Shown: positions 46,276 to 64,000 of the stretch, in pieces
How positions within the stretch are numbered: position 1 is the stretch's first letter
Layout: each line of letters begins with the position of its first letter
NCBI RefSeq assembly: GCF_900167435.1
Contig: NZ_FUWS01000006.1
Span: 186,001 to 250,000, forward strand
Source: Marinactinospora thermotolerans DSM 45154
GTDB lineage: Bacteria; Actinomycetota; Actinomycetes; Streptosporangiales; Streptosporangiaceae
Length of the DNA stretch: 64,000 bases
Direction: 5' to 3'
Notes under the pieces: generated by a model
What the model was told of the DNA's origin: nothing
The model's database searches: none
What the model saw: only the letters and a program-made list of their open reading frames with translations
Translations under genes and position numbers: made by a program

Positions 46276-46602
46276 CTACCCCTTCTCTCGCCTCTCTTCA
46301 TCCGCCAATTCCGGGTACATATCATGGATGTATCCGATCATGTCCCGCAGAACACCCCGCCAGGTCTCCGTGTCCTCATCGGGCTCGTACCCGCTCCTCC
46401 ACTGGATGGTGACAAGGTGGTCGATCTCCTCCTCACTGAGATCAGAGGACAGCATCATCTCGATCTCCTGAAGAATTCTCCGCGATTCATCCAGTGCATT
46501 TACATGCCTCTTCCGGAAGATGTCCTCAAGACTATCGCCATCGAGGTCCCAGTCCTGGTGCATGCCCCCCGCAAAGAAGTCCTCCAGATATTCGTACATC
46601 AT
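46276..46602 (-). CDS. CdiI-type immunity protein, copy A
   Basis: 108 residues, nearly identical to copy B over MHQDWDLDGDSLE and the central HVNALDESRRILQEIEMMLSSDLSEEEIDHLVTIQW; it differs mostly at the ends (YEYLEDFF versus YEYLRKFF). It resembles the CdiI_2 family of contact-dependent inhibition immunity proteins, whose YxxHxDWD core is clear. ATG at 46602 follows AGAGGAG. Here it follows only a toxin remnant, so it is an orphan immunity gene. Confidence 0.8.
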   Translation of the reverse strand: MMYEYLEDFFAGGMHQDWDLDGDSLEDIFRKRHVNALDESRRILQEIEMMLSSDLSEEEIDHLVTIQWRSGYEPDEDTETWRGVLRDMIGYIHDMYPELADEERREKG

Positions 46603-46623
46603 CTCTCCTCTCACACCTGTGGA

Positions 46624-46866
46624 TCAGTCAACCGGGTAATCAATGCAGACACTGCACCCCAATGGACTATCCGGATCCCTGTCCAGGACCACGGTGGCCC
46701 TCTCCGGAGCCCCCTCCACCCATCCGGCCGGATTCTTCTCACTCCCCTGCCGAGTGAAATTCGAGGCCGTGGGCCCAGACGTCGCCGGCCAGGCTGGTGG
46801 TCATCTCGGTGGCGGTGTCGATGGGGTTGAGGACGCTGTCGACCAGGTCGGTGGCGTCGTCGGCGA
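46624..46866 (-). pseudogene. Internally deleted toxin remnant
   Basis: Minus strand: 46866-46760 matches codons of the intact toxin from DDATDLVD to AHGLE (48945-49051), then jumps directly to its C-terminal tail (46759-46624, matching 47778-47643). The jump is out of frame. The tail reads FTRQGSEKNPAGWVEGAPER and ends CIDYPVD, against AYPVE in the intact protein, so the catalytic Thr and Tyr are also lost. Confidence 0.85.
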
Positions 46867-46889
46867 GCGCGTTATCGGCGCCGGCGCCC

Positions 46890-47220
46890 TGGCGCGCGCA
46901 GGCCCGCGGTCAGCCCTTCTCCGGACCGGTCGTCTCCTTATCCAGGACGCCGGTGCGCGAACATGAACACGCACGCCGGCGCTTCCTCCGCACACCGGCC
47001 GGACACGGGCAGCGGCAACCCCGGCGGACACTCCCGCAGCGCGCGGCCCAGCTCTTCGGCGGGGAGTTCCCACGCCGGCCCCCTCCGGACGGCCGGCCCG
47101 GATGGCGTGGATCCACGGTCATCTCACAGAGAGTCTCCACGGCCACCGGCCACAGCGGCATACCCCCTGTGAATGACGACCATGCGTATCGGCCCTGTTG
47201 AGAAGGTAGGCCAGGACCAG
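46890..47220. repeat. Duplicated spacer, copy B
   Basis: Second copy of 45911-46250, offset about 979 bp, fused on its left side to the toxin remnant. Similarity continues through the immunity gene, apart from an insertion of about 30-40 bp near 47230-47280. Confidence 0.85.
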
Positions 47221-47294
47221 CCGGAGCCCGCACTCGCCCCGAAGGTTCCAGAGCGCGCCGATACGATCCTTCGCGTACCTCCCGGATGCCTCTG

Positions 47295-47621
47295 CTACTC
47301 CTTCTCTCGCCTCTCTCCATCTGCCAATTCCGGATGCATGTCATGGATGTATCCGATCATGTCCCGCAGAACACCCCGCCAGGTCTCCGTGTCCTCATCG
47401 GGCTCGTACCCGCTCCTCCACTGGATGGTGACAAGGTGGTCGATCTCCTCCTCACTGAGATCAGAGGACAGCATCATCTCGATCTCCTGAAGAATTCTCC
47501 GCGATTCATCCAGTGCATTTACATGCCTCTTCCGAAAGATTTCCTCAAGACTATCGCCATCGAGATCCCAGTCCTGATGCATGCCCCCCGCAAAGAATTT
47601 TCTCAGATATTCGTACATCAT
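47295..47621 (-). CDS. CdiI-type immunity protein, copy B (cognate)
   Basis: 108 residues, CdiI_2-like (GGMHQDWDLDGDSLEEIF). Starts 22 bp after the toxin stop, ATG at 47621 with AGAGGAG upstream, so it is co-transcribed and is the likely antidote of the RNase A-like toxin. Acidic overall, as expected for binding a basic nuclease. Confidence 0.85.
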   Translation of the reverse strand: MMYEYLRKFFAGGMHQDWDLDGDSLEEIFRKRHVNALDESRRILQEIEMMLSSDLSEEEIDHLVTIQWRSGYEPDEDTETWRGVLRDMIGYIHDMHPELADGERREKE

Positions 47622-47642
47622 CTCTCCTCTCGCACCTCTGGA

Positions 47643-49451
47643 TCACTCAACCGGGTAAGCAGTGTAGATACTGTACCCCAATGGGCTATCCGGGTCCCTG
47701 ACCAGGACCACGGTGACCCTCTCTGGAGCTCCCTCCACCCATCCGGTCGGGTTCTTCTTACTCCCCTGTCGAGCGAAAGATGTACCCAGAACTCCCTGAT
47801 CGACATCTATATTCTCAAGTTCTAGTCGAACATAGCCCTTCGATCCCGTATCCACCCTCTCCAGCCACTCCTCGATCTTCACTTTCTCCTGATCAAGGAC
47901 GGTCGCGACCGCACGCTCCGCGGTTTCCCTATCAGTCCATCTCGTCGCGACCCTCCCCGAAGGGGGACCGATTCCTATCGTCCGATTACGCAAATACTCA
48001 TCACTGACGCCGACATGGCGCTCCAAGGTATGGCCTCCCATATCCTCGTGGGCCTGTAGGCCTCCGCCTGGTACAAGACGGCAGGCGTCGTTGTGAACGA
48101 GGACGTCTGTCCGGCCTGCCGCGACGTGGTAGGTGTGCAGGTCGGCGACGGTGAGGTTGTGGACCCGCTGGTGGGCGGTGCGGATGTCCAGGGCGGTGAC
48201 CTGGATCCAGGTGCCGGCGGATGTCTGCAGCCAGGCGCCCGGCGTCAGGTCGATGGCGTCGGTCCAGGTCTGGGCGGTGGGAACCCAGAAGGGGTGGCCG
48301 TCGGTGGCGGTGAGCCGGCCGGTGTCGCCGTCGGTGTCGGTGACAGTGATCTCCACCAGCGTCGTGGGGCCGTGGCCGTCGATGAGGTCGGTGACGGGGC
48401 GCGGCCCGGACTCCCCGGTGAGAGGGTCGGTGGCCCAGACATGATCGCCGACTCCGACGTCCTCGATGGGGCGGTGGGCGCCGTCGGCCATCAGCACGAG
48501 AGTGCCGGGGACGAAGCTGTTACGGGCGCACGAGGATCCGTCGCCGTCCTGGCTGTCCTGGCCGTCCTGGTCAGGCCGGTCGTCCGGGGAGTTGGGGGGA
48601 GGCTGGCCGGGATCGGCACCGTCGGCGTGGAAGTGGGGGGTGTTGGCTCCGGGCGGGTCGGGGGTGCCCTCGGCGATGGCCTGGGTCAGCTTGCCGCCTC
48701 GGCCCAGCCACCCCACGCCGGGAATGAAGTAGGAGCCGAGGTTCCACGCGCCGCGCCCCAGGGCCCCGGCGTAGTCGCCGCTGCTCCAGGAGCCGGTGAC
48801 CTCCTCGTCGACCACGCTGCGGTACAGGCTGCCCACGCTCAGCGGGGACTCCCACGCCCCGTAGCGGATGTTCTCCTTCAGGAAGGTCTCCGCGGCGCCG
48901 AGGTAGTCGCCCTCGTCAAGCCGCTCGCGGACCTGGTCGGCGGTTTCGAGGCCGTGGGCCCAGACGTCGCCGGCCAGGCTGGTGGTCATCTCGGTGGCGG
49001 TGTCGATGGGGTTGAGGACGGTGTCGACCAGGTCGGTGGCGTCGTCGGCGATCCCCCCGCCGGCGCCGGTGAGGAAGCGCCACGTGCTGTCCAGGAGCCC
49101 ACCGCCGGCGTCAGCGGTGTTCTCGGAGGTGTCGGCGGCGGGCTGGATCTGCGGCTCGGCCGGCCCCGGCACAGTCTCCTCGTCGTCCCGCGAGGAGGCA
49201 TCCTCCTGCTCCTCCTCAGCGGGCGGACTGTCGAGGGGATCCTGTTCCTCGTTGCCGGCGACGGGCACGTTCCCTTGATCAGCGCCGGTGCCGTCGAAGA
49301 TGGAGCCGACGGCACCGGTGACGCCGTCGCGCAACGTGGTGGGGATACCAGAGCCGATCAGGACGGCCATGATGGCCGCGACCAGCATGATGACCGCGCT
49401 GTACTCGACGAAGGAGGCGCCCCGGTCGGGGTCGTGGATTCTGCGCAGCAT
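47643..49451 (-). CDS. Polymorphic toxin: pilin-like N-terminus, Hint domain, RNase A-like toxin
   Basis: 602 residues. Residues 8-35 (DRGASFVEYSAVIMLVAAI) match Flp/Tad prepilins: basic leader, Gly before the cut, Glu at +5 and a hydrophobic helix. An acidic linker (about 45-110) and a helical middle follow. A Hint domain (about 305-455) runs from CARNSFVPGTLVLMADG through TDGHPFWV to HNLTVADLHTYHVAAG and VLVHND. The last 147 residues fit bacterial RNase A-like CdiA toxins: GGHTLERHVG, Arg 11 residues after the second His, and the C-terminal TAYP pair, matching the His/Arg/Thr/Tyr set of that family. Followed by its immunity gene. Confidence 0.85.
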   Translation of the reverse strand: MLRRIHDPDRGASFVEYSAVIMLVAAIMAVLIGSGIPTTLRDGVTGAVGSIFDGTGADQGNVPVAGNEEQDPLDSPPAEEEQEDASSRDDEETVPGPAEPQIQPAADTSENTADAGGGLLDSTWRFLTGAGGGIADDATDLVDTVLNPIDTATEMTTSLAGDVWAHGLETADQVRERLDEGDYLGAAETFLKENIRYGAWESPLSVGSLYRSVVDEEVTGSWSSGDYAGALGRGAWNLGSYFIPGVGWLGRGGKLTQAIAEGTPDPPGANTPHFHADGADPGQPPPNSPDDRPDQDGQDSQDGDGSSCARNSFVPGTLVLMADGAHRPIEDVGVGDHVWATDPLTGESGPRPVTDLIDGHGPTTLVEITVTDTDGDTGRLTATDGHPFWVPTAQTWTDAIDLTPGAWLQTSAGTWIQVTALDIRTAHQRVHNLTVADLHTYHVAAGRTDVLVHNDACRLVPGGGLQAHEDMGGHTLERHVGVSDEYLRNRTIGIGPPSGRVATRWTDRETAERAVATVLDQEKVKIEEWLERVDTGSKGYVRLELENIDVDQGVLGTSFARQGSKKNPTGWVEGAPERVTVVLVRDPDSPLGYSIYTAYPVE

Positions 49452-51928: not shown

Positions 51929-52282
51929 TCAGGCGCCGCGTGAGGCGGCCTGGGCCGCGACGGTCGCGTCCGGGTACACCTGGAGGATGCGGTCGACCCC
52001 GACGATATGCAGAATGCGTGCGGTGCTGGGCGGCACCGCCGCCAGAGCGGCGTCGCCACCGGACGCCCGTGCGTGGTTCCAGGCGGCGAGGAACGCGGTG
52101 ATGCCGCTGGAGTCGCAGAACGTGAGTCCCGCGAGGTCGATCACGAGCAGCGCGCCCGGCGGCACCGCCAGGCCGCCCACCGCCGCGCGGAACACGTCGG
52201 CGCTGTCGTAGTCGAGGTCGCCCATGACCTGCACCACGGGGCCCGTGGGAGCGTCCTCGACGGCCACGGACAACGAGTTCAT
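51929..52282 (-). CDS. rsbV: STAS-domain anti-sigma factor antagonist
   Basis: 117 residues, single STAS domain: VVQVMGDLDYDSADVF, LLVIDLAGLTFCDSSGITAFLAA with the phosphorylatable Ser in DSSG, and LHIVGVDRILQVYP. ATG 52282 overlaps the phosphatase stop (ATGA). It should be the substrate of the upstream PP2C phosphatase and, when dephosphorylated, bind an anti-sigma kinase. That kinase and the sigma factor are not in the window. Confidence 0.88.
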   Translation of the reverse strand: MNSLSVAVEDAPTGPVVQVMGDLDYDSADVFRAAVGGLAVPPGALLVIDLAGLTFCDSSGITAFLAAWNHARASGGDAALAAVPPSTARILHIVGVDRILQVYPDATVAAQAASRGA

Positions 52283-53565
52283 GTCCTCTTCCCCTCCGCC
52301 GCTGCGTCCGGTGTGGCGGGCACCCCCAGGCACAGCAGCGCGGTGTCGTCGTTGAGTCCATCGCCGAATCCCGAGAGCAGTTCGACCAGGGCCGCCACGA
52401 TCCCGTCCGGTCCGCCGCCCGCGTGTTCGGCGGCGAACGCGCGCAGCGCCTCCTCGCCGAACAGGCCGCGGTCGGCGCCGACACGCGCCTCGGTGAGGCC
52501 GTCGGTGTAGAGCAGCAGGCTGTCCCCGGGTTCCAGCCGGTTGTGCGCGCCGACGAACGGCGCGTCGGGCAGGATGCCCACGAGCATGCCGCCCGGGGTG
52601 TCCAGGAACTCGGCCCCGCCGTCGGCTCGCGTGATCACGGCCGGCGGGTGGCCACCACTGGCGACGCGCACGTCGAACCCGTCGCCGTCCGGTTGGAGCA
52701 CCCCGAACACGGCGGTGCAGTAGCGCGGCTCGCCGCTCGTGTAGCGATCGTGGAGCGCGGTGTTGAGCGTCGCCAGCACCGCGGCCGGATCGGCGGTGTA
52801 CGCGGCCGCCGTGCGCAGGGTGTACCGGGCCAGCGAGGTGAGGGACGCCGCCTCGGGCCCCTTGCCGGACACGTCCCCCAGGAAGAACGCCCACCGGTCC
52901 TCGCCGAGGGGGAACAGGTCGTAGAAGTCGCCGCCCAGCCGGTCGGGCGACGCCGTGTGGTAGTGGGTGGCCGTCACCAGGCCGGGCACGTCCGGCAGCG
53001 TGTCGGGCAGCAGGCTCTGCTGGAGCACGGCCAGCGCCGACTGCAACCGGACGCGGTCGGCCTCGGCCTGGCGCCGCGCCTCCTCGGCGGCGCGGCGGGC
53101 GCGCAGCAGTTCCGCCTCGTAGGAGCGGCGGTCGCGGGCGTCGGTCAGGGTGGTGCGGATGAGCAGCGGCTCGCCGCCGTCGCCGTTCTTGACGACCGAC
53201 GTGACCAGCACCGGCATCCGGGTGCCGTCGGCCGCCCGGATCTCCAGGGCGATGCCGTTGACCTCTCCCCGCATGTGCAGCAGCGGGGCGAAGTGGGTCT
53301 CGTGGTAGAGCTTCCCGCCGACGGTCAGCAGGTCGGAGAAGCTCATCCGGCCGACCACTTCGTCCCGCTCGCGGCCCAGCCATCCCAGCAGGGTGCCGTT
53401 GACCTTGGCGATCGTGCCGTCCATCAGCGTCGACAGGTAACCGCAGGGGGCGTTCTCGTAGAGGTCCTCCGCGCTCTCCTCCAGGAGCGAGGTGAACGCC
53501 GCGTCGACCGCGGATCCGAGCCCGCGGCCGCCGTTGGCCGCGGGCTCGGATCCGCGGTTCATCAC
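52279..53565 (-). CDS. rsbP: PAS-PP2C (SpoIIE/RsbU-type) serine phosphatase, RsbP-like
   Basis: 428 residues: PAS domain (about 30-150, ENAPCGYLSTLMDGTIAKVN), coiled coil (residues 150-185), then PP2C phosphatase with metal ligands in GGDFYDLF, GDVSGKGPEAA, ASGGHPPAV, YTDGLTEAR and GLNDDTALL. PAS plus PP2C is the RsbP architecture of Bacillus energy-stress signalling. Its start overlaps the RsbQ-like gene (ATGA), and in Bacillus RsbQ binds the PAS domain of RsbP. Intact and probably active. Confidence 0.9.
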   Translation of the reverse strand: MMNRGSEPAANGGRGLGSAVDAAFTSLLEESAEDLYENAPCGYLSTLMDGTIAKVNGTLLGWLGRERDEVVGRMSFSDLLTVGGKLYHETHFAPLLHMRGEVNGIALEIRAADGTRMPVLVTSVVKNGDGGEPLLIRTTLTDARDRRSYEAELLRARRAAEEARRQAEADRVRLQSALAVLQQSLLPDTLPDVPGLVTATHYHTASPDRLGGDFYDLFPLGEDRWAFFLGDVSGKGPEAASLTSLARYTLRTAAAYTADPAAVLATLNTALHDRYTSGEPRYCTAVFGVLQPDGDGFDVRVASGGHPPAVITRADGGAEFLDTPGGMLVGILPDAPFVGAHNRLEPGDSLLLYTDGLTEARVGADRGLFGEEALRAFAAEHAGGGPDGIVAALVELLSGFGDGLNDDTALLCLGVPATPDAAAEGKRT

Positions 53566-54373
53566 GCGCGGGCTCCGGCGAACGCGGCTATCGCCTCGGC
53601 GGTGGCCGTGGGCGCGCTGAGCTGGGGGCAGTGGCCGGTGGCGTCCAGGGTGACCAACCGACTGCCGGGGATGGCCGCCTGCACGTAGCGCCGACCTCGC
53701 GGGGGGCGATCACGTCCTGGGCGCACTCCACGATCAGCGTCGGCACGGACACCGTCTTCAGGTCGTCGCGGCTGTCGGAGAGGAAGGTGGTACGGGCGAA
53801 CACGGCCGCGATGTCGGGGTCGGTCGCGCAGAACGCGTTCTCCAGCTCCCGCCCCAGCTCCGGCCGGTCCGGGTTGCCCATGATCACCGGCGCCATGGCG
53901 GCCGACCAGCCCAGGTAGTTGGAGTCGAGCGACTCCAGCAGCTCGTCGATGTCGGTGGCGCTGAACCCCCCACGGTAGCCCTCGTCGTCGATGTAGCAGG
54001 GGGACGGGGTGATCATCGCGAGCGCGCCGATGCGTTCGGGCGCGGCGGCCGCGGCGAGGACCCCCACCATGGCGCTCACCGAGTGGCCGACGAACACCGC
54101 GTCGGACAGGTCGAGGGCCGCGCACACCTCGACGGCGTCGCGGGCGTAACCGTCGAGCGTGCTGTAGCGTTCGGCGTTCCACGCCGACAGGTCGGACTTC
54201 CCCGAGCCGACGTAGTCGAACCGGACCACGCGGAAGTCCGGCTCCAGGAGTGGCACGACCAGGCGCCACAGGTTCTGGTCGCAACCGAAACCGTGTGCCA
54301 GCACCACGGTGGGCCCATCGGTCCGTCCGGTCACGACCACGTTGTTGCGCCCCAGAATGTCCATATGGCCCAT
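53562..54373 (-). pseudogene. rsbQ: RsbQ-like alpha/beta-hydrolase with one-base frameshift
   Basis: About 270 codons. The first 227 or so read RsbQ/D14-like: VLAHGFGCDQNLW, RFDYVGSGKSDLSAW, VFVGHSVSAM (nucleophile Ser) and SPCYIDDEGYRGGF. After QDVIAPREVG, near 53689, one base is missing. The frame must shift to read YVQAAIPGSRLVTLDATGHCPQLS, which holds the catalytic His. If real, the protein loses its His. Could be a sequencing error, since everything else is well kept. ATG at 54373 with AGAAGGA upstream. First gene of the rsbQ-P-V operon. Confidence 0.8.
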
Positions 54374-55417: not shown

Positions 55418-56500
55418 TCACATGTGGTGGGCGACGATCACGCTGGTCGGGGAGGGCGTCGAACGGATCTCGGAGATCCGCAGCCCCGCCCGCCGGAACA
55501 ACGGCACCAGTTCGTCCTCGGTCCGGATGTGCCCGCGTAGCAGCGTCAGCATGACGATGTCCTCGAACTTGCCGAAGTGGGGCGAGTTGTTCGACGGGGG
55601 AACCTCGTCGATCACCAGCAGCGTGCCGCCGGGTTCCATCGCCCGGCCGATGTTGGCGAGCATCCGTTCGGCGTCGGCGTCGTCCCAGTCGTGCAGGGTC
55701 CAGGAGACGACGTAGAGGTCTCCCCCTCCGGGAACCCGTTCGAGGAAGTCACCCCCCTCGCAGCGCACCCGATCCTCGAGCCCGGCGCCTTGGATGACCT
55801 CCCTTGCCTCGGGGACGACGCGCGGCAGGTCGTACACCACGGCGGTCAGATCCGGGTAACGCTGCGCGATCAGGGAGACGAGGTGTCCCTGTCCCCCTCC
55901 GACGTCCACCAGGTGGCGTACGCCGCCGAAGTCGTAGTGCTCCAGGACCTCGGAGTTGATCCGGCGGGACATGGTGCCCATGGCCCGGTTGAACAGGGTG
56001 GCGAGCTCACGGTGCTCCCCGAAGTACTCCCACCAGGACTTCCCGTGCACGTGGTCGAAGGCCGGCTCACCGGTGCGCAGACTGTGGGAGACGTTCGCGA
56101 ACGCCTGCTGGCGGGCGGGAAGGCCGACGTACCTGGCGACGTCGCGCATCGACCCCTGCTCGTCGCTGCACAGGGTGCGGGACAGCGGGGTGTGCTCGAA
56201 GACCTCCGGCTCCACCTCCGCGAACACGCCGGTGCTGGCCAGCGCGCGCATCACCCGGTAGAGGGCGCCGGGGTGGGCGCCGGTGGCCGCCGCCAGTTCG
56301 CGCACGGGGCGCCGGCCCGCCGTCAGCTCGTCGGCCAGGCCGATGTCGGCGACCGCGACCAGGAGCTGGCTGACGAGGGAGCTGTAGAGCATCTCGTACA
56401 TGCGCACGGCCGGGGGCCGGTCTCCACCTCCCAGTACGCCCCCCGGCATGTCGGGGATGCCCGTGGCCTGGAACGAGTTGTTCTCCGCTGTCGCCGTCAT
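55418..56500 (-). CDS. SAM-dependent O-methyltransferase (plant/actinomycete type 2)
   Basis: 360 residues. N-terminal dimerisation helices (MYEMLYSSLVSQLLVAVADIGLAD), then a Rossmann SAM domain with LVDVGGGQGHLV, the VVYDLPRVVPEA strand and catalytic His in WTLHDWDD, with Glu in DEVPP. Methylates a hydroxyl on a small aromatic. ATG at 56500 with GAGGAG upstream. It is 94 bp after the AMP-ligase stop and probably the last gene of the biosynthetic operon; cremeomycin-type clusters also contain an O-methyltransferase. Confidence 0.88.
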   Translation of the reverse strand: MTATAENNSFQATGIPDMPGGVLGGGDRPPAVRMYEMLYSSLVSQLLVAVADIGLADELTAGRRPVRELAAATGAHPGALYRVMRALASTGVFAEVEPEVFEHTPLSRTLCSDEQGSMRDVARYVGLPARQQAFANVSHSLRTGEPAFDHVHGKSWWEYFGEHRELATLFNRAMGTMSRRINSEVLEHYDFGGVRHLVDVGGGQGHLVSLIAQRYPDLTAVVYDLPRVVPEAREVIQGAGLEDRVRCEGGDFLERVPGGGDLYVVSWTLHDWDDADAERMLANIGRAMEPGGTLLVIDEVPPSNNSPHFGKFEDIVMLTLLRGHIRTEDELVPLFRRAGLRISEIRSTPSPTSVIVAHHM

Positions 56501-56594: not shown

Positions 56595-58289
56595 TCACGA
56601 GACGCCCGACCCCGCGAGCGCCGAAACGTACATCTCCCGCATCCGCCGCTTGAGGACCTTCCCGGTCGGCCCGGTGGGGAACTCATCGGGGCCGGCGGCC
56701 ACGGTCACCCCTCGCAGCGGTACCAGCCCCGCCTCGGCGAGCGCCGCGTTGAGCGTGTCGAGAAGGCTGCCGGGGGCAGGTGTTCCCGCCCTCAGCCGGA
56801 CGACGGCGAACGGGGCCTGGTCCCCGGCCACGGGGTCCGGCACGGCGATGACCGCGCAGTCGTCGACCACGGGGTCGGTCAGGACGACCTCCTCGATGGG
56901 CAGGCTGTACACCGGCCCGTCGGCCGTGTGGATGACATCGGGCGAACGGTCCAGGTGGTAGATCCTGCCGTCCTCGGTGCGGTACACGACGTCACCGGTC
57001 AGCCAGTACCCGGAGTAGGACGACTGGATGGTGCGGCGGGAGTCGTTCCAGTACCCCGGCGTGACCGTGGGCGTCCGCACCCCGAGGCGCCCCGGCTCGC
57101 CCGGCCCCAGGGGCCGTCCGGCGTCGTCGAGGACCGCGACCTCCTCGACGATGTCGATCGGTGTGCCGACGCACCGGCCGTAGTCCCCGCTCTCTGGCTC
57201 GCTGACCTTCCGGAAGAGGGCCATTCCCATCTCCGAGGAGCCGAGCCCGTCAATGAACCTCGACCCCGGGCGGTGCCCGCCGTTCCCGTCGGGCCGGCGC
57301 CCGTAGCGGACCAGGGCGCGGATGTGCGCCTCGTGGGCGGAGTCGCCGGTGTTGATCCACGTGTGCACCTGCGCGCTTCCCGGCCCGGACAGGTCGAGGG
57401 CGGCGAGCTCGACGTAGGTCTGTGGAAAGGCCGCCACCACGGTGGGCTCGAACCTGTCCATGGCGGCGCGCACCGACGCGCCGTCGTTGTCGGTCATGAC
57501 CATGGTGGGCAGCCCCAGGAGGGTCGCCGTCATCAGGTAGCTGATGCCCGCGGAGTGGGACTGCGGGAGCGCGGTCAGCAACCGGTTGCCCTCCTCCGCC
57601 TGCGGGAAGGTGAGCAGACGCTCCCGCTTGCCAAGGAAGAACTGTCGGTGGCCGAACATCGCGGCCTTGGGTGGGCCGGTCGTCCCCGACGTGTGGCAGA
57701 GCATGACGGGGTCGGGGTCGGCGTGGGGGTAGGGGAACACGCCGGGGAGCGCCGTCCCCGAGGCGGGCTCGGCGGGGATCTCGGCCGCGTCCGCGCACCA
57801 CAGCAGTCCGCCGGCGTCCAGGCCGGCGTCCCTGAGCGCGGCCAGGTGCCCCGTGGTGGCCACGACCCCGACCGCGCCGATCCGGGCGACGTAGTCGGCC
57901 GCCACGGGTGCCGGCATCCGCCCGTTGACCAGGGCGGGGACGGCACCCAGGGAGCTCAGGGCGAGGAAGTGGAGGAAGTAGCCCACCCCGTCGTCGAGGT
58001 AGACGGCGACCGGATCCCCCTTGGTGACCCCCGCCGCGTGGTACCACCCCGCGTACGTGTCACGGGTACGGACGAGCTGTTCGACGCTGAGGGGGCGGGC
58101 CTGCTCAGGGGAGCCCCCGCGCGCGACCGTCCACAGGAACGGCCGGTCACCGGCCGGGTGGACGGCGGCGACCCGGTCGAGGAAGTTGCCCATGCCGAGG
58201 TCCTCGTCGGCGAACAGCCGTCTGCGCGCTTCCAGCGGAACAGCGGCGGAGGGGGGATAAGAGTGGGAAGAGAATGAGTGGACGACCAT
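56595..58289 (-). CDS. AMP-forming acyl-CoA ligase/diazotase-like enzyme
   Basis: 564 residues, ANL superfamily: P-loop HTSGTTGPPKAAMF, A5 DGLGSSEMGMALF, A7 SGYWLTGDVVYR and catalytic Lys in PTGPTGKVLKRR. Members activate carboxylates as adenylates; in diazo pathways relatives such as CreM activate nitrite with ATP to diazotise an aromatic amine. Which applies is not decided by motif. ATG at 58289 with GGAGGAG upstream. It lies 184 bp after the CreD-like gene. Confidence 0.87.
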   Translation of the reverse strand: MVVHSFSSHSYPPSAAVPLEARRRLFADEDLGMGNFLDRVAAVHPAGDRPFLWTVARGGSPEQARPLSVEQLVRTRDTYAGWYHAAGVTKGDPVAVYLDDGVGYFLHFLALSSLGAVPALVNGRMPAPVAADYVARIGAVGVVATTGHLAALRDAGLDAGGLLWCADAAEIPAEPASGTALPGVFPYPHADPDPVMLCHTSGTTGPPKAAMFGHRQFFLGKRERLLTFPQAEEGNRLLTALPQSHSAGISYLMTATLLGLPTMVMTDNDGASVRAAMDRFEPTVVAAFPQTYVELAALDLSGPGSAQVHTWINTGDSAHEAHIRALVRYGRRPDGNGGHRPGSRFIDGLGSSEMGMALFRKVSEPESGDYGRCVGTPIDIVEEVAVLDDAGRPLGPGEPGRLGVRTPTVTPGYWNDSRRTIQSSYSGYWLTGDVVYRTEDGRIYHLDRSPDVIHTADGPVYSLPIEEVVLTDPVVDDCAVIAVPDPVAGDQAPFAVVRLRAGTPAPGSLLDTLNAALAEAGLVPLRGVTVAAGPDEFPTGPTGKVLKRRMREMYVSALAGSGVS

Positions 58290-58472: not shown

Positions 58473-59927
58473 TCACCGGGCCGGGTCTGGCACCGTCTCC
58501 TTCGGCGTGGCCGGCCGGTGCTGGCCGAGCGCGTGGTCGACCAGGTGAACCGCTGCTCCGGTGTATCCGGCCGGATCGCACAACCCCACGAGGTCGTCGA
58601 GGGAGAACTTCCCGGCCGTCGCGGGCTCGTGGGCGAGGGCGGCGAAGAGCAGCTCGGCCTGTTCCGGCCCGCCCCCGGCCGTCCGCCCGGCGCAGTCGGC
58701 CACCAGGGCGCGGGCTCTGGCCCGCCCCAGCAGCGGTGCCAGTACCGCCGCCACGCGCTCGCTGGTCACGGCACCCGCCTCCACCGCCACGTTGCGCACC
58801 ATCCGGTCGGGCCTGACACGCAGCCCCGCGACCAGTTCGACGAGGGTGTGGGTGGACCCTCCGGTGAGCCTGAGACACTCGCGCAGCGGCTGCCACTCGG
58901 CGTGCCAGGCCCCGCCGGACCGCTCGTCCTCCGCGGCCACGCACTGGAGCAGCCCCGCGGTAAGGGCGGGCACCTGGAGGGCGGCGCTGCGGATCAGGGT
59001 GGCCAGGACGGGGTTGCGTTTGTGGGGCATGGCCGAGGAGGCCCCCCTGCCCGCAGGGCCCGGCTCCACCACCTCCCCGATCTCGGTACGGGACAGGGTG
59101 AGGACGTCGACGGCGATCTTGCCGAGCGCCCCAGCCGTGAATCCCAGCACCGACGCGAGATCGGCGATCGGCGTGCGCAGGCTGTGCCAGGGCAGCGTCT
59201 GGGGTGCCAGGCCGGTCTCCCGGGCGAAGGCCCGCACCAGGCGGTTGGTGTGGCGGGCCCGCCCCTTTCCCGAGAGCTCCCCCTCCGGCGCGGCGTACTC
59301 CAGGTAGCCGGCCAGTGTCCCCGCGGCTCCTCCGAGCGAGACCGGCAGCCCGCCGTCGAGCAGCCGTGAGACCCGTTCGCGGGCGTCCACGAGCAGGTGA
59401 CGCCACCCCACGGCTTTGAGACCGAAGGTGATGGGCACCGCCTGCATGGCGAGGGTCCGCCCGGCCATGAGGGTGTCCCGGTGCTCGTGCGCAAGCGTCT
59501 CCAGGCCACGGATGGCCGAGGACAGGTCGGCGCGGATCAGCCGCAGGGCCCGCTGGGAGACCAGCATCGCACCGGTGTCGAAGACGTCCTGGCTGGTCGA
59601 CCCCTGGTGGACGTACTCGGCGGCGTTCGGGTCGCGCTCGGCGACACACCTGGTGAGCTCCCTCACCAGGGCCACCACCGGATTGGCGTTCTCTCGGGCG
59701 GCGACCGCGACCGCGCGCAGGTCGACGCATCCGGACGTGGCCACCCTGGTGATGGCCTCGGCCGCCGACCGGGGCACGACGCCCAGCCCGGCCTGGGCCC
59801 GGGCGAGCGCCGCCTCGGCCTCCAAGATGGCGCGCAGCCACGCGGCGTCGGAGACGACCCGTTCCACCGGGGTGGCGGCCCGCACCGGCGAGAGCAGTCC
59901 CGCGTCGATCTGCTCCTCCCCGGTCAC
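58473..59927 (-). CDS. creD: Nitrosuccinate lyase, CreD-like (aspartase/fumarase superfamily)
   Basis: 484 residues. Superfamily signature GASSAMPHKRNP (flexible catalytic loop Ser), HQGSTSQDVFDTGAM and AGRTLAMQAVPITFGLK. The closest group by layout is 3-carboxymuconate cycloisomerase/adenylosuccinate lyase, the branch that contains CreD. CreD splits nitrosuccinate into fumarate and nitrite. The GTGA overlap with the CreE-like gene supports this assignment over a purine or catabolic role. GTG at 59927 with GAGGTGATC. Confidence 0.8.
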   Translation of the reverse strand: MTGEEQIDAGLLSPVRAATPVERVVSDAAWLRAILEAEAALARAQAGLGVVPRSAAEAITRVATSGCVDLRAVAVAARENANPVVALVRELTRCVAERDPNAAEYVHQGSTSQDVFDTGAMLVSQRALRLIRADLSSAIRGLETLAHEHRDTLMAGRTLAMQAVPITFGLKAVGWRHLLVDARERVSRLLDGGLPVSLGGAAGTLAGYLEYAAPEGELSGKGRARHTNRLVRAFARETGLAPQTLPWHSLRTPIADLASVLGFTAGALGKIAVDVLTLSRTEIGEVVEPGPAGRGASSAMPHKRNPVLATLIRSAALQVPALTAGLLQCVAAEDERSGGAWHAEWQPLRECLRLTGGSTHTLVELVAGLRVRPDRMVRNVAVEAGAVTSERVAAVLAPLLGRARARALVADCAGRTAGGGPEQAELLFAALAHEPATAGKFSLDDLVGLCDPAGYTGAAVHLVDHALGQHRPATPKETVPDPAR

Positions 59928-61945
59928 ACGATCACCTCTGTCAGGTCGCCGCGCGACGCGGCCACCCGGTCCCCGACCGGAACGTGCACGGCGGGTGCCA
60001 ACGCGAGCACCGACCGCGCGATCGCGTCGGAGTCGCCCAGGGTGACCGAGTCGACCCCGGGACGGGTCCCCGCGGCCGTGACCCAGTGCACCGCCTCGGT
60101 GGGCACCCCGTAGGCGAAGCGGCGCGGGTGGACCCGGCCGCGCCCGTCGACCAGGTGGTAGGGGCGTTCGGTGACCGCGAGCCCGCCGGTCTCGTAGCAG
60201 CCGCCCCCCTGGCACGCGATCCGGTAGGGGACGACCTGGTCGCTGTTCAACAGGTGGGTGAGCAGGGGGTCGTCCACCCGGCGCAGGTCGGGTTCGGGAA
60301 GCCGGGCCTCGATGAGGGCCTTCGACCGAATCGGAGGGCCCGGCACCTGGTCGGAGACCGCGACGAACCCGGGGAGGGAGGCGTCGAAGCGGACCTGGGT
60401 GCCCGGGCCGGTGATCTCCACGACCCCGGCCTCGATCAGCGCGATGAGCTCCCTGATCCGCGAGGCGGGCGGGCCGATCGACAGGAAGGCGTTGAGGGGC
60501 GTGTACCAGCCCTGCAGTTCGTCACGGTAGGACCTCCCGTCCAGCCCCCCGTGGTCGACCGCGAGCCTGACCTCGTTACGCAGGTCGCGCAGTACGTCCA
60601 GGGCCGCCTTGAGCGGTCCGTCGACGTTTCCGGCCTCGGCCGCGCGGACGTCCTGGGCGAGGTGGTCGAGAAGCCAGGCCTGGAATCCGGCCCGGCTGGT
60701 GAAGACCCGCCCCTCGTGGGGGCGGCCGAGCCGGCGCCAGTCCCACCGGTCGGCGGGCACGATGCCGTACTCGGTCGACAGCGCGACGGCCCCCGCCTCG
60801 TCCTCCACGAGGAAACGGGAGGTGAAGGTCTCGGCCGCGGTGGCATCCCCCCGCGAGCGCAGCAGGGTGGCGTAGTAGACGCTCTCGACCTCCCGCCTGA
60901 TCAACGGCCACAGATCCCGGGAGAAGCTCAGCCCTTCCGGGGAGAGCCGGCGGAGGCGTTCGATCGTCGCGGCCGTGAACAGGCGGGGGACGTGACGTCC
61001 CGCGGCCCCCTTCTGGTTACGCCCGCGCGCGTGGTAGGGGATGCCCCGGCGAGAGAACCCGTAGATGACCGGTTCTGCACCGGAGGGGTGGTACACCAGG
61101 CGGTCCGCCCGCTCCTCGAACCTCCCGCCCCGCCCCTGGGTGAGCAGGGTCACGTAGTCGAAGAAGTTGAGTCCAAGACCGCGGAGCAGCACCGGCCGCC
61201 CCGCCTCGACCCCGCTCAGATCCACGTCGGCGGGGTTGTCGGGGGTGACGTAGACGAGCCCGTGGATGCGGGCCAGGCTGGTGGTGCGGGCCTGTTGCGC
61301 GCTTCGGCGGACGGGCAGATGGCCCTGGGCCAAGACGATGGCGTCCAGGAAGTTCAGGCTCGTCCCGTTCTCCATACGGATGCCCTGCGGGCCGCCTTGG
61401 ACCCCGTAGGCGTCGGCCATCGCCAACGCCCGGGTGGCGTGGACCCGGACCCGGACGTTGGCCGGCGCCCCGGCGACGATGCGGGCGAAACAGGCACGCA
61501 GGTAGCAGCCGTACAGGGCCCGCGTCGGATAGGAGTCGGGTCCCAGGCCGCGCGCCTCCACCAGGATCTCCTCGTCGTAGCCGTCGAACTCACCGAGGAG
61601 GGCCAGCCCTTGGGCCCAGTCGTAGAGGCTGGGGCCCGGTTCGATCGGCCCGTCGATCTGGACGCTGTCGTCGGTGTAGACCGTGATCTGGGACGCCACG
61701 GTGTTCATCAGCAGGAGCCGCGACTGGTCGGTGCGCCACACCGCCCCCGCTCCCGGGGGGAAGGAGTCGATGAGGTGGACCGTCACCTCCCGATGCGAGG
61801 AGTCTCTCCTCGCGTTGGCGCACAGCCGCTCCAGCACCGACAGCCCGCGGGGGCCCGCCCCCACGATGCCCACCTCGAAACCGCGCTTCTCCCCGGGTCC
61901 CGGACCGCGATCACGGCCCTGTCTCATTCGTGGGTCGTCAGACAT
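59924..61945 (-). CDS. creE: CreE-like FAD-dependent aspartate N-oxygenase
   Basis: 673 residues with an N-terminal FAD site (VGIVGAGPRGLSVLERL), a structural Trp/Arg-rich stretch (GAGAVWRTDQSRLLLMN) and a long C-terminal half (GYDEEILVEARGLGPDS and after), like the NAD_binding_9 flavoproteins that include CreE. CreE oxidises the amino group of aspartate in three steps to nitrosuccinate. Coupled to the CreD-like lyase by a 4-bp overlap, which is the diagnostic pair of the nitrosuccinate pathway. ATG at 61945 with GGAG at about 11 nt; a GTG at 61987 is in frame. Confidence 0.82.
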   Translation of the reverse strand: MSDDPRMRQGRDRGPGPGEKRGFEVGIVGAGPRGLSVLERLCANARRDSSHREVTVHLIDSFPPGAGAVWRTDQSRLLLMNTVASQITVYTDDSVQIDGPIEPGPSLYDWAQGLALLGEFDGYDEEILVEARGLGPDSYPTRALYGCYLRACFARIVAGAPANVRVRVHATRALAMADAYGVQGGPQGIRMENGTSLNFLDAIVLAQGHLPVRRSAQQARTTSLARIHGLVYVTPDNPADVDLSGVEAGRPVLLRGLGLNFFDYVTLLTQGRGGRFEERADRLVYHPSGAEPVIYGFSRRGIPYHARGRNQKGAAGRHVPRLFTAATIERLRRLSPEGLSFSRDLWPLIRREVESVYYATLLRSRGDATAAETFTSRFLVEDEAGAVALSTEYGIVPADRWDWRRLGRPHEGRVFTSRAGFQAWLLDHLAQDVRAAEAGNVDGPLKAALDVLRDLRNEVRLAVDHGGLDGRSYRDELQGWYTPLNAFLSIGPPASRIRELIALIEAGVVEITGPGTQVRFDASLPGFVAVSDQVPGPPIRSKALIEARLPEPDLRRVDDPLLTHLLNSDQVVPYRIACQGGGCYETGGLAVTERPYHLVDGRGRVHPRRFAYGVPTEAVHWVTAAGTRPGVDSVTLGDSDAIARSVLALAPAVHVPVGDRVAASRGDLTEVIV

Positions 61946-62047: not shown

Positions 62048-62890
62048 TCAGCGCGGCAGGCTCATCTCCGCGTGGTCACGGACTCCGCCCACCGACCGGG
62101 AGAACCCCTCGGAGGCGAGCAGGGGGTGGATGACCTCCGCCACCCGGCGGGCCATTTCGCCCGGCGCGGGGGCCTCGAAGATGTTCCGGCCCATGGCCAC
62201 GCCCGACGTGCCCGCGCTGAGCAGCCGGGATACTTGGGCCACGACGTCGGCGGAGGCCTGCCCCGCAGGCCCGCCCGCGGTGATGACCGGCACGGAGCTT
62301 TGGGCCACGACGTCGGCCATCTCCTCCGGCGTCCGCGCCCACGGCAGTTTCACGATGTCGGCGCCGAGGTCGGTCGCGAGCGACGCGGCGTGCGCGAGCA
62401 GCCCGGGATCACGCGGATCGGTGATGCGCGGACCGCGCGGGTACATCATGGCCAAAAGCGGGATCCCCCACTCGGCGCAGGCGTCGGCGACCGCGGCGAA
62501 GTCCGCTATCTGCCTCCGTTCGTCGTCGGACCCCAGGTTCACGTGGACGCTCACCGCGTCGGCGGCCAACCGGACCGCGGCCTCGACACTGGAGACCAGG
62601 TACTTGGCGTCGGGGTCGGGCGCGTGCATGGTGCTCGCGCTCAGGTGGACGATGAGCCCGATGTCCGCGAAACGGCGGGGGTCCACGAACGCCACGCGCC
62701 CCTTGTGCACGACGACGGCGTCCACCCCGTTCTCCGCCAGGGTCCCGACGAGCGGATCGAGGGTGCGCGCGGGCACGATGGGCCCGTCCGCGACCGAATG
62801 GTCCAGGGGCACCACGAAGAGCCGGCCGTCACCGTAGCGGTGGAGACGGCGCATCCGCAGTAACGTGGCCGACGATCGGAAGTTCGTCAT
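62048..62890 (-). CDS. GriI/DhnA-type aldolase (2-amino-4,5-dihydroxy-6-oxoheptanoate-7-phosphate synthase-like)
   Basis: 280 residues, class-I aldolase of the FbaB/DhnA group: FVVPLDHSVADGPI, VDAVVVHKGRVAF, AVSVHVNLGSDDERRQ, ADIVKLPWART (candidate Schiff-base Lys) and VITAGGPAGQ. In grixazone, nataxazole and cremeomycin clusters GriI-type enzymes join aspartate semialdehyde and dihydroxyacetone phosphate on the way to 3-amino-4-hydroxybenzoate. Neighbouring aspartate kinase supports that over ADH synthase for shikimate. ATG at 62890, GAGAGG 9 nt upstream. A GriH-type partner should lie beyond the window. Confidence 0.82.
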   Translation of the reverse strand: MTNFRSSATLLRMRRLHRYGDGRLFVVPLDHSVADGPIVPARTLDPLVGTLAENGVDAVVVHKGRVAFVDPRRFADIGLIVHLSASTMHAPDPDAKYLVSSVEAAVRLAADAVSVHVNLGSDDERRQIADFAAVADACAEWGIPLLAMMYPRGPRITDPRDPGLLAHAASLATDLGADIVKLPWARTPEEMADVVAQSSVPVITAGGPAGQASADVVAQVSRLLSAGTSGVAMGRNIFEAPAPGEMARRVAEVIHPLLASEGFSRSVGGVRDHAEMSLPR

Positions 62891-62937: not shown

Positions 62938-64000
62938 TCAGGCCGGGGCCGCGCCCAGTCCGAACGCCTCGTGCAGCGCCGCCGTCGCCTTGTCGACACG
63001 CGAGGCCGGGACCAGCACGGAGGCGCGTGACTGGGTGAGCGACATCCATTCGGTGGTGATGCCGAGGTCTCCCAGGACGCGCAGGATGCGCCTGGACAGT
63101 CCCGGCCGGTTCAGCAGGCCGACCCCCACGACCGAGACCTGCGCGGCACCGGTGTCGATCGTGTAGGTGAGACCATGGCTGCCGGCCGAGCGGCGCAGCA
63201 GTTCCTCGACCTCCTCCACGCGGTCCCCGCGCACGACGAAGCCGAGGTCGAGGCCTGTCGAGGGGCCGCCGGCCCAGCCGGTGAGGTGGAGCGGGAGCAG
63301 GCGTTCGTGGAGCACGTCGAGGAGGACCCGGCCGAGGCCGTCTCCGTCCTCGTCGAGGCGCACGCCGACCTTCGCGACGTTGGGATCGTGGGTGACGGCG
63401 TACACGAATCCTGCGTTTTCGAGCATGGGCCCACTCCGCCCTTGGACGATCGTTCCTGGAATGCGGGTGTCGGGCGCGCCAACGGTGATCGTGGTGCCGT
63501 GGACCGCCGCGAGTTCCACCGCGCGGGAATGGAGGACGCGGGCGCCGGATATCGACATCTCGCTCATCACCTCGTGGGGGACCTCCGGCAGCACGCGGGC
63601 GTCGGGCACCACACGGGGGTCCGCCGTGTAGACGCCGTGGACGTCCGTGTAGATCTCGCATGTTCCCGCCCCCAGCGCGACGGCGAGCGCCACCGCGGTG
63701 GTGTCGGATCCGCCCCGGCCGAGCGTGCGGACGTCACCGTCCTCGTCATGCCCCTGGAAGCCCGCCACGACGACGACGGTCCCCTCCGCCAGGTGCGCCA
63801 GAATCCGTCGTGTCTCGATCGCGGAAATGCGGGTTTCGCCGCCGACGTGGACGGCGTCGATGCCGGCCTGCCCGCCGGTCAGGGAGACCGCGGGCACTCC
63901 CGACGCCTGTAGGGCCATCGCCATGAACGCGGCGGAGGCGATCTCCCCCGTCGACAACAGTTGGTCGAGTTCACGCGCGTTGGGTGAGGCGAACGCCTCC
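62938..64000 (-). CDS. ask: Aspartate kinase (N-terminus beyond window)
   Basis: 354 codons, open to the right edge. Kinase motifs ELDQLLSTGEIASAAFMAMAL, TLGRGGSDTTAVALA and YTDVHGVYTADPRVVP, then two C-terminal ACT domains (about 63455-62960) that normally bind Lys or Thr. It phosphorylates aspartate to feed aspartate semialdehyde. Its place at the head of this operon suggests a pathway-dedicated copy, perhaps with altered feedback control. The start and N-terminal KFGG motif are outside the window. Confidence 0.92.
   Translation of the reverse strand, partial: EAFASPNARELDQLLSTGEIASAAFMAMALQASGVPAVSLTGGQAGIDAVHVGGETRISAIETRRILAHLAEGTVVVVAGFQGHDEDGDVRTLGRGGSDTTAVALAVALGAGTCEIYTDVHGVYTADPRVVPDARVLPEVPHEVMSEMSISGARVLHSRAVELAAVHGTTITVGAPDTRIPGTIVQGRSGPMLENAGFVYAVTHDPNVAKVGVRLDEDGDGLGRVLLDVLHERLLPLHLTGWAGGPSTGLDLGFVVRGDRVEEVEELLRRSAGSHGLTYTIDTGAAQVSVVGVGLLNRPGLSRRILRVLGDLGITTEWMSLTQSRASVLVPASRVDKATAALHEAFGLGAAPA

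Follow-up and report, generated by a model that had tools for sequence, protein, structure and literature searches.

Among the described systems closest to the locus analysed here, the cremeomycin pathway combines CreE and CreD with a CreM-type ligase and a methyltransferase, according to the accessible parts of PMC11705231 and PMC11429834; PMC13061610, likewise accessible in part, served as a further source for comparison. For the crx cluster of Streptomyces sp. CS057, the accessible part of PMC11429834 reports that no crexazone was formed once crxD or crxE had been deleted and that crexazones 2 and 3 were lost when crxM was deleted, and none of the three crexazones described there has a diazo group or N–N bond. 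The ava and cma clusters for avenalumic and p-coumaric acid contain a ketosynthase, a chain-length factor and carrier proteins, as described in the accessible part of PMC10777205. Here we analyse a 64,000-nucleotide stretch of Marinactinospora thermotolerans DSM 45154 (the window; contig NZ_FUWS01000006.1, G000:C23:186001-250000), reading the sequence also past the window end in a stretch labelled L004, with a focus on two overlapping genes for a CreE-type flavoprotein and a CreD-type lyase. We consider it likely, from sequence comparisons, that this pair is the nitrite-supply (aspartate–nitrosuccinate, ANS) module of a crexazone-type 3-amino-4-hydroxybenzoate (3,4-AHBA) cluster with diazotisation, that the diazo group is then consumed, and that the pair is swappable.

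Both open reading frames were found on the minus strand at the position and with the 4-bp overlap reported in an initial annotation of this DNA:

59924–61945, minus strand: CreE-type L-aspartate N-hydroxylase (nitrosuccinate synthase), ATG start, 673 amino acids
58473–59927, minus strand: CreD-type nitrosuccinate lyase, GTG start, 484 amino acids, 4-bp overlap with creE

The TGA stop of the CreE gene lies inside the GTGA at which the CreD gene begins, and a purine-rich stretch precedes the start of each gene. The initial annotation had assigned the two proteins to NAD_binding_9 and to the aspartase/fumarase superfamily, and Pfam agrees (NAD_binding_9, E 1e-39; Lyase_1, E 5e-38, together with ADSL_C). 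The arrangement of the two genes is not a product of chance, and the ANS pair itself is a well-known enzyme pair. There is a strong case that these proteins are ANS enzymes, which would convert aspartate to nitrosuccinate and then to nitrite and fumarate, and we are nearly certain that a CreE/CreD-type pair such as this one would form nitrite.

The lyase scores 694.6 bits against the NCBIfam nitrosuccinate lyase model NF052556, above the cut-off of 650. Its second- and third-best NCBIfam matches are PcaB models, of which TIGR02426 is marginally exceeded (359.6 against a cut-off of 355.75), and these matches favour an alternative that takes the lyase for a 3-carboxymuconate cycloisomerase (PcaB) and sees an unrelated N-hydroxylase in the flavoprotein. 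The models for adenylosuccinate lyase (244 and 166 bits) and the one for argininosuccinate lyase (38 bits) lie far under cut-off. The closest solved structure is CreD 5XNY (E 4.9e-151). With the published residues transferred via printed alignments, here and for the hydroxylase 8CP2 below, all 20 ScCreD positions checked are identical in the window lyase, and both the E49/H118/D125/H253/R341 fingerprint and the SSxMPxKRNP loop are complete. The accessible part of PMC13411527 proposes this combination as a nitrite fingerprint and includes, among the nitrating enzymes overlaid, a muconate lactonising enzyme with the same dyad; because that enzyme shares the fingerprint, the fingerprint alone does not separate CreD from PcaB. 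Evidence against the PcaB alternative comes from elsewhere. PF00206 matches five proteins of the genome. Besides the window lyase, these are four that we label, from BLAST and motifs, as fumarase, argininosuccinate lyase, PcaB and adenylosuccinate lyase, and the separate PcaB-like protein (L203) is 46.5% identical to the window lyase. In a tree of 40 rows chosen from about 92 gathered, in which the bootstrap was not fully settled, the window lyase falls in the CreD clade with 5XNY (support 99/100), not with the adenylosuccinate or argininosuccinate lyases, a placement that the initial annotation had named as refuting its reading. Its nearest rows are the CreD proteins of S. iconiensis and Nocardiopsis (four-row set, 99/96), and the genome's four other lyases and PcaB 1RE5 stand outside the clade, three of them on very long branches. 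In 100% of 200 bootstrap trees, with 33 ungrouped rows left uncounted, the five housekeeping rows are separated from the window lyase and 5XNY. Moreover, the lyase gene overlaps a CreE-type gene, and a CreD match occurs at 75 of the best 80 CreE loci, of more, in a scan of genome contigs (tblastn of window proteins, within the stretches examined). The PcaB alternative is thus extremely improbable, and a housekeeping lyase was rejected on the NCBIfam scores, the separate genomic PcaB-like protein and the CreD-clade tree.

The flavoprotein has no NCBIfam match at E 0.001. Its closest solved structure is the aspartate N-hydroxylase 8CP2 (E 3.4e-187), with 330 of 593 aligned residues identical. 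Ten of the 11 aspartate- and arginine-cluster residues of 8CP2 named in the accessible part of PMC10404684 are kept (R13, N62, R266, R276, R409, R412, N413, R416, R577 and R593), and the sole change is at the peripheral tunnel-entrance residue R597, which is Ala in the flavoprotein. In a CreE tree of 23 rows, the window CreE groups with the S. iconiensis and Nocardiopsis CreE (100/99). The CreE/CreD assignment of the initial annotation is therefore upheld by the NF052556 match, the conserved CreD and hydroxylase residues and the CreD-clade placement, as far as sequence can carry it.

The initial annotation had further pointed to an ATP-dependent ligase next door, which by model rank and trees appears to be a CreM/AvaA6-type diazotase:

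56595–58289, minus strand: CreM/AvaA6-type ANL ligase, probable ATP- and nitrite-dependent diazotase, 564 amino acids (AMP-binding, E 2e-40)

Its best NCBIfam model is the AvaA6 diazotase NF058622, and because the score of 439.2 bits is under the equivalog cut-off of 975 we do not name the protein AvaA6; eight ligase relatives scanned against the same model score 340–504. Its PDB matches include Tri17 (9BQ0/8TF7). Glu353 in the GSSE motif is invariant in alignment A1 and would be the counterpart of the Mg-ATP glutamate E352 of CreM by motif reading. A search with the ligase returned a 60% identical protein in one of 392 genomes of the genus of G354 (G717, inferred to be Streptomyces) and 68–70% identical proteins in three others of 341 family genomes (G018, G158 and G146). 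In diazotase trees of 36, 43 and 26 chosen rows, the ligases of these four genomes and the window genome (G000), hereafter the five crx-type genomes, form one clade (98/97), the window ligase is outside the clade of cre-like ligases, and AvaA6 proteins over the cut-off, 38–42% identical, fall in another clade. PDB entries 8ZTZ and 9XB8, for which no open-access paper naming either was found, were placed here by tree position alone. Taken together, we think it very probable that the ligase diazotises a 3,4-AHBA-type amine.

The initial annotation missed that the pair sits inside a 3,4-AHBA cluster, as predicted from the surrounding genes. The cluster extends past the window end, from window 55.4 kb to L004:14144, and its further members are:

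62048–62890, minus strand: GriI/BagB/FevI-type DhnA aldolase, first 3,4-AHBA step, 280 amino acids (best model NF041223, 361 bits, below the cut-off of 500)
62938–64000, minus strand, with its start at window position 64164 (L004:1164): cluster aspartate kinase in the CrxK position, AA_kinase and ACT domains, NCBIfam aspartate kinase
55418–56500, minus strand: Methyltransf_2 methyltransferase in the CrxN/CreN position, 360 amino acids (Pfam E 9e-45)
L004:1425–2531, plus strand: GriH-type cyclase (best model BagC/FevH 3,4-AHBA synthase, 604.7 bits, below the cut-off of 750)
L004:10577–11434, minus strand: AvaA7-like reductase (epimerase-fold), 285 amino acids, best NCBIfam model AvaA7
Beyond the GriH-type gene: genes for a LuxR regulator of large size, two SMR proteins, an SDR, a TetR regulator, a cupin, a BBE-type oxidase, the AvaA7-like reductase just listed, NmrA, a DAO-type oxidase and a glyoxalase-fold protein

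The GriH-type gene is the sole DHQS-II match in the genome, a family found in three of 14 control genomes, all archaeal. The aldolase is 75–77% identical to its counterparts in G018, G158 and S. iconiensis, the aspartate kinase 51–62% identical in G717, G018 and G158, and the methyltransferase 64–73% identical in the crx-type clusters of G717, G018, G158 and G146, against 30–35% in cremeomycin-like loci. We considered whether the AvaA7-like, DAO, NmrA, BBE, cupin, SDR and SMR genes are mere neighbours and rejected this, as they are conserved with the cluster in relatives.

The cluster core was found in four other genomes, G717, G018, G158 and, in part, G146. G717 carries nearly the whole set including CreE and CreD, with no match to the AvaA7-like gene in 38 kb around its crx-type cluster. 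The 16 other tested cluster genes are present in G018 and G158, with no CreE or CreD in their cluster stretches. The G146 cluster contig starts beside the methyltransferase and holds methyltransferase, ligase, LuxR, NmrA, DAO and glyoxalase genes; its AvaA7-like gene is on a separate contig, of which the 20 kb read contain no further gene of the cluster. CreE itself is far more widespread: matches at E 1e-60 occur in 51 of 250 family genomes, and of 55 CreE places besides the window's own, 40 were examined with flanks, of which 13 have CreD and none has GriH or GriI, so that finding a CreE relative is not enough to infer this cluster. Among the best 80 CreE loci described above, GriI matches occur at four, GriH matches at three and CreM matches of at least 38% at 12, with a further 49 loci giving 24–29% matches. 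An ANL ligase only 24–29% identical to the window diazotase is often near CreE/CreD loci (L037 of G158, many of L106–L184), and at L037 CreE/CreD lie beside DXP synthase, polyprenyl synthase and LytB genes, a neighbourhood that suggests a separate ANS-linked isoprenoid-type cluster.

Across the five crx-type genomes, CreE is in the cluster in two (the window genome and G717) and at another locus in one (G158, inferred to be Nocardiopsis, near the isoprenoid-type genes), and it was not found at E 1e-5 in the G018 and G146 genomes (98% and 97% complete). The G717 CreE groups with other sequences than the window CreE, and a single clade for the two is rejected by the approximately unbiased (AU) test (p 1.7e-64, for a pair chosen after the tree was viewed); the GriI-CreE-CreD neighbourhood is common to the window and S. 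iconiensis. Because CreE clade and presence vary while the diazotase stays one clade, the nitrite module looks exchangeable, and the ANS pair of the window looks like a swappable module, acquired independently of the pair in the Streptomyces crx-type cluster. ANS genes are likewise missing from 72 of 134 ava-like clusters in the accessible part of PMC10777205, a parallel case. If the nitrite supply is exchangeable, G018 and G146 would depend on nitrite that comes from general metabolism or from their environment. As a tentative generalisation, to which we give slightly less than even weight, the conserved 3,4-AHBA/diazotase cluster could use the diazo group as a disposable leaving group, N2 being lost in coupling or reduction, together with an exchangeable nitrite supply. 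That one and the same diazotase-centred cluster occurs with either of two ANS pairs acquired separately, with an unlinked pair, or with no pair found offers a natural comparison that bears on whether the diazotase depends on dedicated nitrite.

In the pathway that we propose, the aspartate kinase would feed aspartate semialdehyde, from which, with dihydroxyacetone phosphate, the GriI-type aldolase and GriH-type cyclase would form 3,4-AHBA, a step for which the family-level case is strong. A second aspartate would be converted to nitrosuccinate by the CreE-type enzyme and further to nitrous acid and fumarate by the CreD-type enzyme, again with a strong case from sequence. The ligase would then probably activate nitrite with ATP and diazotise 3,4-AHBA, or a close derivative of it, at its amino group. 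Most likely the diazo group would be consumed, with the methyltransferase, FAD oxidases and AvaA7-like reductase leading to a 3,4-AHBA-derived product that, as we infer from crx genetics, may lack an N–N bond. Because the 3,4-AHBA amine and nitrite should both derive from aspartate, labelling can test the whole scheme. An N-nitroso product is a poor guess for an o-aminophenol substrate. The initial annotation had expected a diazo, N-nitroso or other N–N bond in the product; of this, diazotisation remains likely, and the bond itself is not established. An N–N product does not follow because crx needs the CreD/CreE/CreM homologues yet the compounds isolated, as given in the accessible part of PMC11429834, carry no N–N bond, and an AvaA7-like gene is present here. 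We therefore judge an N–N bond in the final product to be rather unlikely.

The fate of the diazo group could also be read in other ways. CreE, CreD, a CreM-type ligase and a methyltransferase occur together as for cremeomycin, and an ortho hydroxyl stabilises such compounds according to the accessible part of PMC11705231, which would suit a stable final diazo compound, namely an o-diazoquinone of 3,4-AHBA that resembles cremeomycin and receives its methyl group from the adjoining methyltransferase. We regard this as unlikely, given the low identity of the methyltransferase to cre-like ones, the position of the ligase outside the cre-like clade, the lack among the scanned cluster proteins of the two aromatic hydroxylases encoded in the S. 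himastatinicus locus, and crx-type genetics, which yielded no diazo product in what is accessible of PMC11429834. Alternatively, diazotisation could serve deamination, with the AvaA7-like reductase removing N2 to leave an amine-free hydroxy- or methoxybenzoate-type product as in the avenalumic and p-coumaric acid pathways. AvaA7 is indeed the best model for the 285-residue protein (111.9 bits, the next model giving 42.8), and because this score is under the cut-off of 400, a point that speaks against deamination, we call the protein AvaA7-like and not AvaA7. The gene is inside the clusters of G000, G018 and G158 and is rare, occurring at E 1e-40 in three of 150 family genomes (G000, G018 and G146), each with a 68–100% identical diazotase; the idea that it is unrelated, raised by holders without CreE, was rejected, those genomes carrying the diazotase. 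Its absence from the 38 kb around the G717 cluster and the location of the G146 copy on another contig weigh against deamination, as does the fact that the gene is no simple replacement of the DSBA-like gene discussed below: substitution of one for the other was rejected, as G018 has both. We thus consider deamination improbable.

The crexazone-type reading with a consumed diazo group, which we prefer, has points of its own against it. The CreD residue fingerprint lends support without being decisive. The ligase score of 439 falls far short of the AvaA6 cut-off of 975, and the ligase is at most 70% identical to the relatives found (60% in Streptomyces), which weakens the assignment of its substrate. 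The AvaA7-like protein stays below its cut-off (112 against 400), is unlinked in G146 and was not found in G717; it shows 35–36% identity to proteins encoded in two of the three ava-type loci examined, and the third gives no match. In addition, the crx authors allow for a cryptic or unstable diazo product or step that was possibly missed (accessible part of PMC11429834), and we apply the term crx-type by gene order, orientation and stated functions via the stand-in G717.

Elsewhere in the window, RsbP- and RsbQ-like genes (52.3–54.4 kb) were considered as cluster members and set aside, those two queries being unmatched in the G018, G146, G158 and G717 stretches. The region 51929–54368 (minus strand) holds what we read as an RsbQ-like hydrolase, its frame broken in the last part, followed by a PAS-SpoIIE phosphatase that is overlapped by a short frame resembling, in our reading, a STAS antagonist; these genes are probably a stress-regulation module outside the cluster. 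The gene at 47643–49451 (minus strand) resembles polymorphic toxins and combines a pretoxin HINT domain with a CdiA-CT RNase A domain; after it come two open reading frames of the CdiI_2 immunity-like kind that are nearly identical to each other (47295–47621 and 46276–46614, minus strand). This toxin/immunity region (46276–49451) is in the window's lowest-GC 2-kb step (0.618 at 46–48 kb).

The cremeomycin cluster and the loci that we label cre-like by gene content (L094, L162, L164 and L176) share with the window the ANS pair, a CreM-type ligase, 3,4-AHBA genes and a methyltransferase. They differ in that their ligase and GriI fall in clades apart from the window's (GriI tree of 12 rows), and in that the only annotated cre-like locus, L164/L195 of S. 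himastatinicus, has two aromatic hydroxylases (FAD_binding_3 with Rng_hyd_C) between methyltransferase and CreE, genes of which none was found among the 18 window-cluster proteins scanned. On the L195 hydroxylase genes and the ligase and GriI trees we rejected a cremeomycin cluster sensu stricto. With the ava and cma clusters the window shares 3,4-AHBA, an ATP-dependent diazotase and a denitrifying reductase as best-matching model; the diazotase clade, and the finding of no ketosynthase, chain-length factor or carrier proteins among the window-cluster proteins scanned, led us to reject a cluster of this kind. The S. iconiensis locus L105/L193 has the most similar CreE among the loci listed (70–71%), CreD at 64%, GriI at 75% and the same GriI-CreE-CreD adjacency, whereas CreM is only 43% and the methyltransferase 35% identical. 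Alongside GriH, GriI, CreE, CreD, CreM and methyltransferase genes, that locus encodes a cyclodipeptide synthase, an aldehyde dehydrogenase-type protein, an amidohydrolase, a flavin reductase and extra ligase-type proteins, and is possibly a new 3,4-AHBA cluster type.

By gene content, the window cluster is of the crx (crexazone) rather than the cremeomycin type, with 3,4-AHBA, ANS, CrxM, CrxN, DAO, cupin and LuxR genes all together. The crx gene order, inferred from deletion constructs in the accessible part of PMC11429834, is A1-A2-B-C-A3-D-E-K-I-H-N-M-F-R1, and the G717 order is DAO, NmrA, DSBA-like, cupin, BBE, CreD, CreE, aspartate kinase, GriI, GriH, methyltransferase, ligase, glyoxalase, LuxR. 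As far as that source describes crx, the 14 genes thus follow the same order, strand relations agree with the fragment descriptions, and the nine crx genes with a stated function (A1, C, D, E, H, I, N, M and R1) are matched in G717. Like crx, the window cluster has a DAO-type FAD oxidoreductase, a cupin, CreD/CreE, the 3,4-AHBA pair, the K gene, the methyltransferase, the CreM-type ligase, and LuxR and TetR regulators. The DSBA-like gene, assigned to the crxB position by order, has no tblastn match in 50–98 kb of the extended region or in 39 kb of G158, and the G717 copy is matched by tblastn in G018 (61%) and G146 (64%). Compared with crx, the window has counterparts of 13 of the 14 genes in a rearranged order, a CreE/CreD pair of another clade than that of G717, two SMR genes near the LuxR gene and, in addition, the AvaA7-like gene. 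We therefore read the cluster, on gene content and trees, as a non-Streptomyces variant of crx that has another ANS pair and an AvaA7-like reductase, a system in which to pursue the question raised by crx of why diazo enzymes are required although no diazo product is seen.

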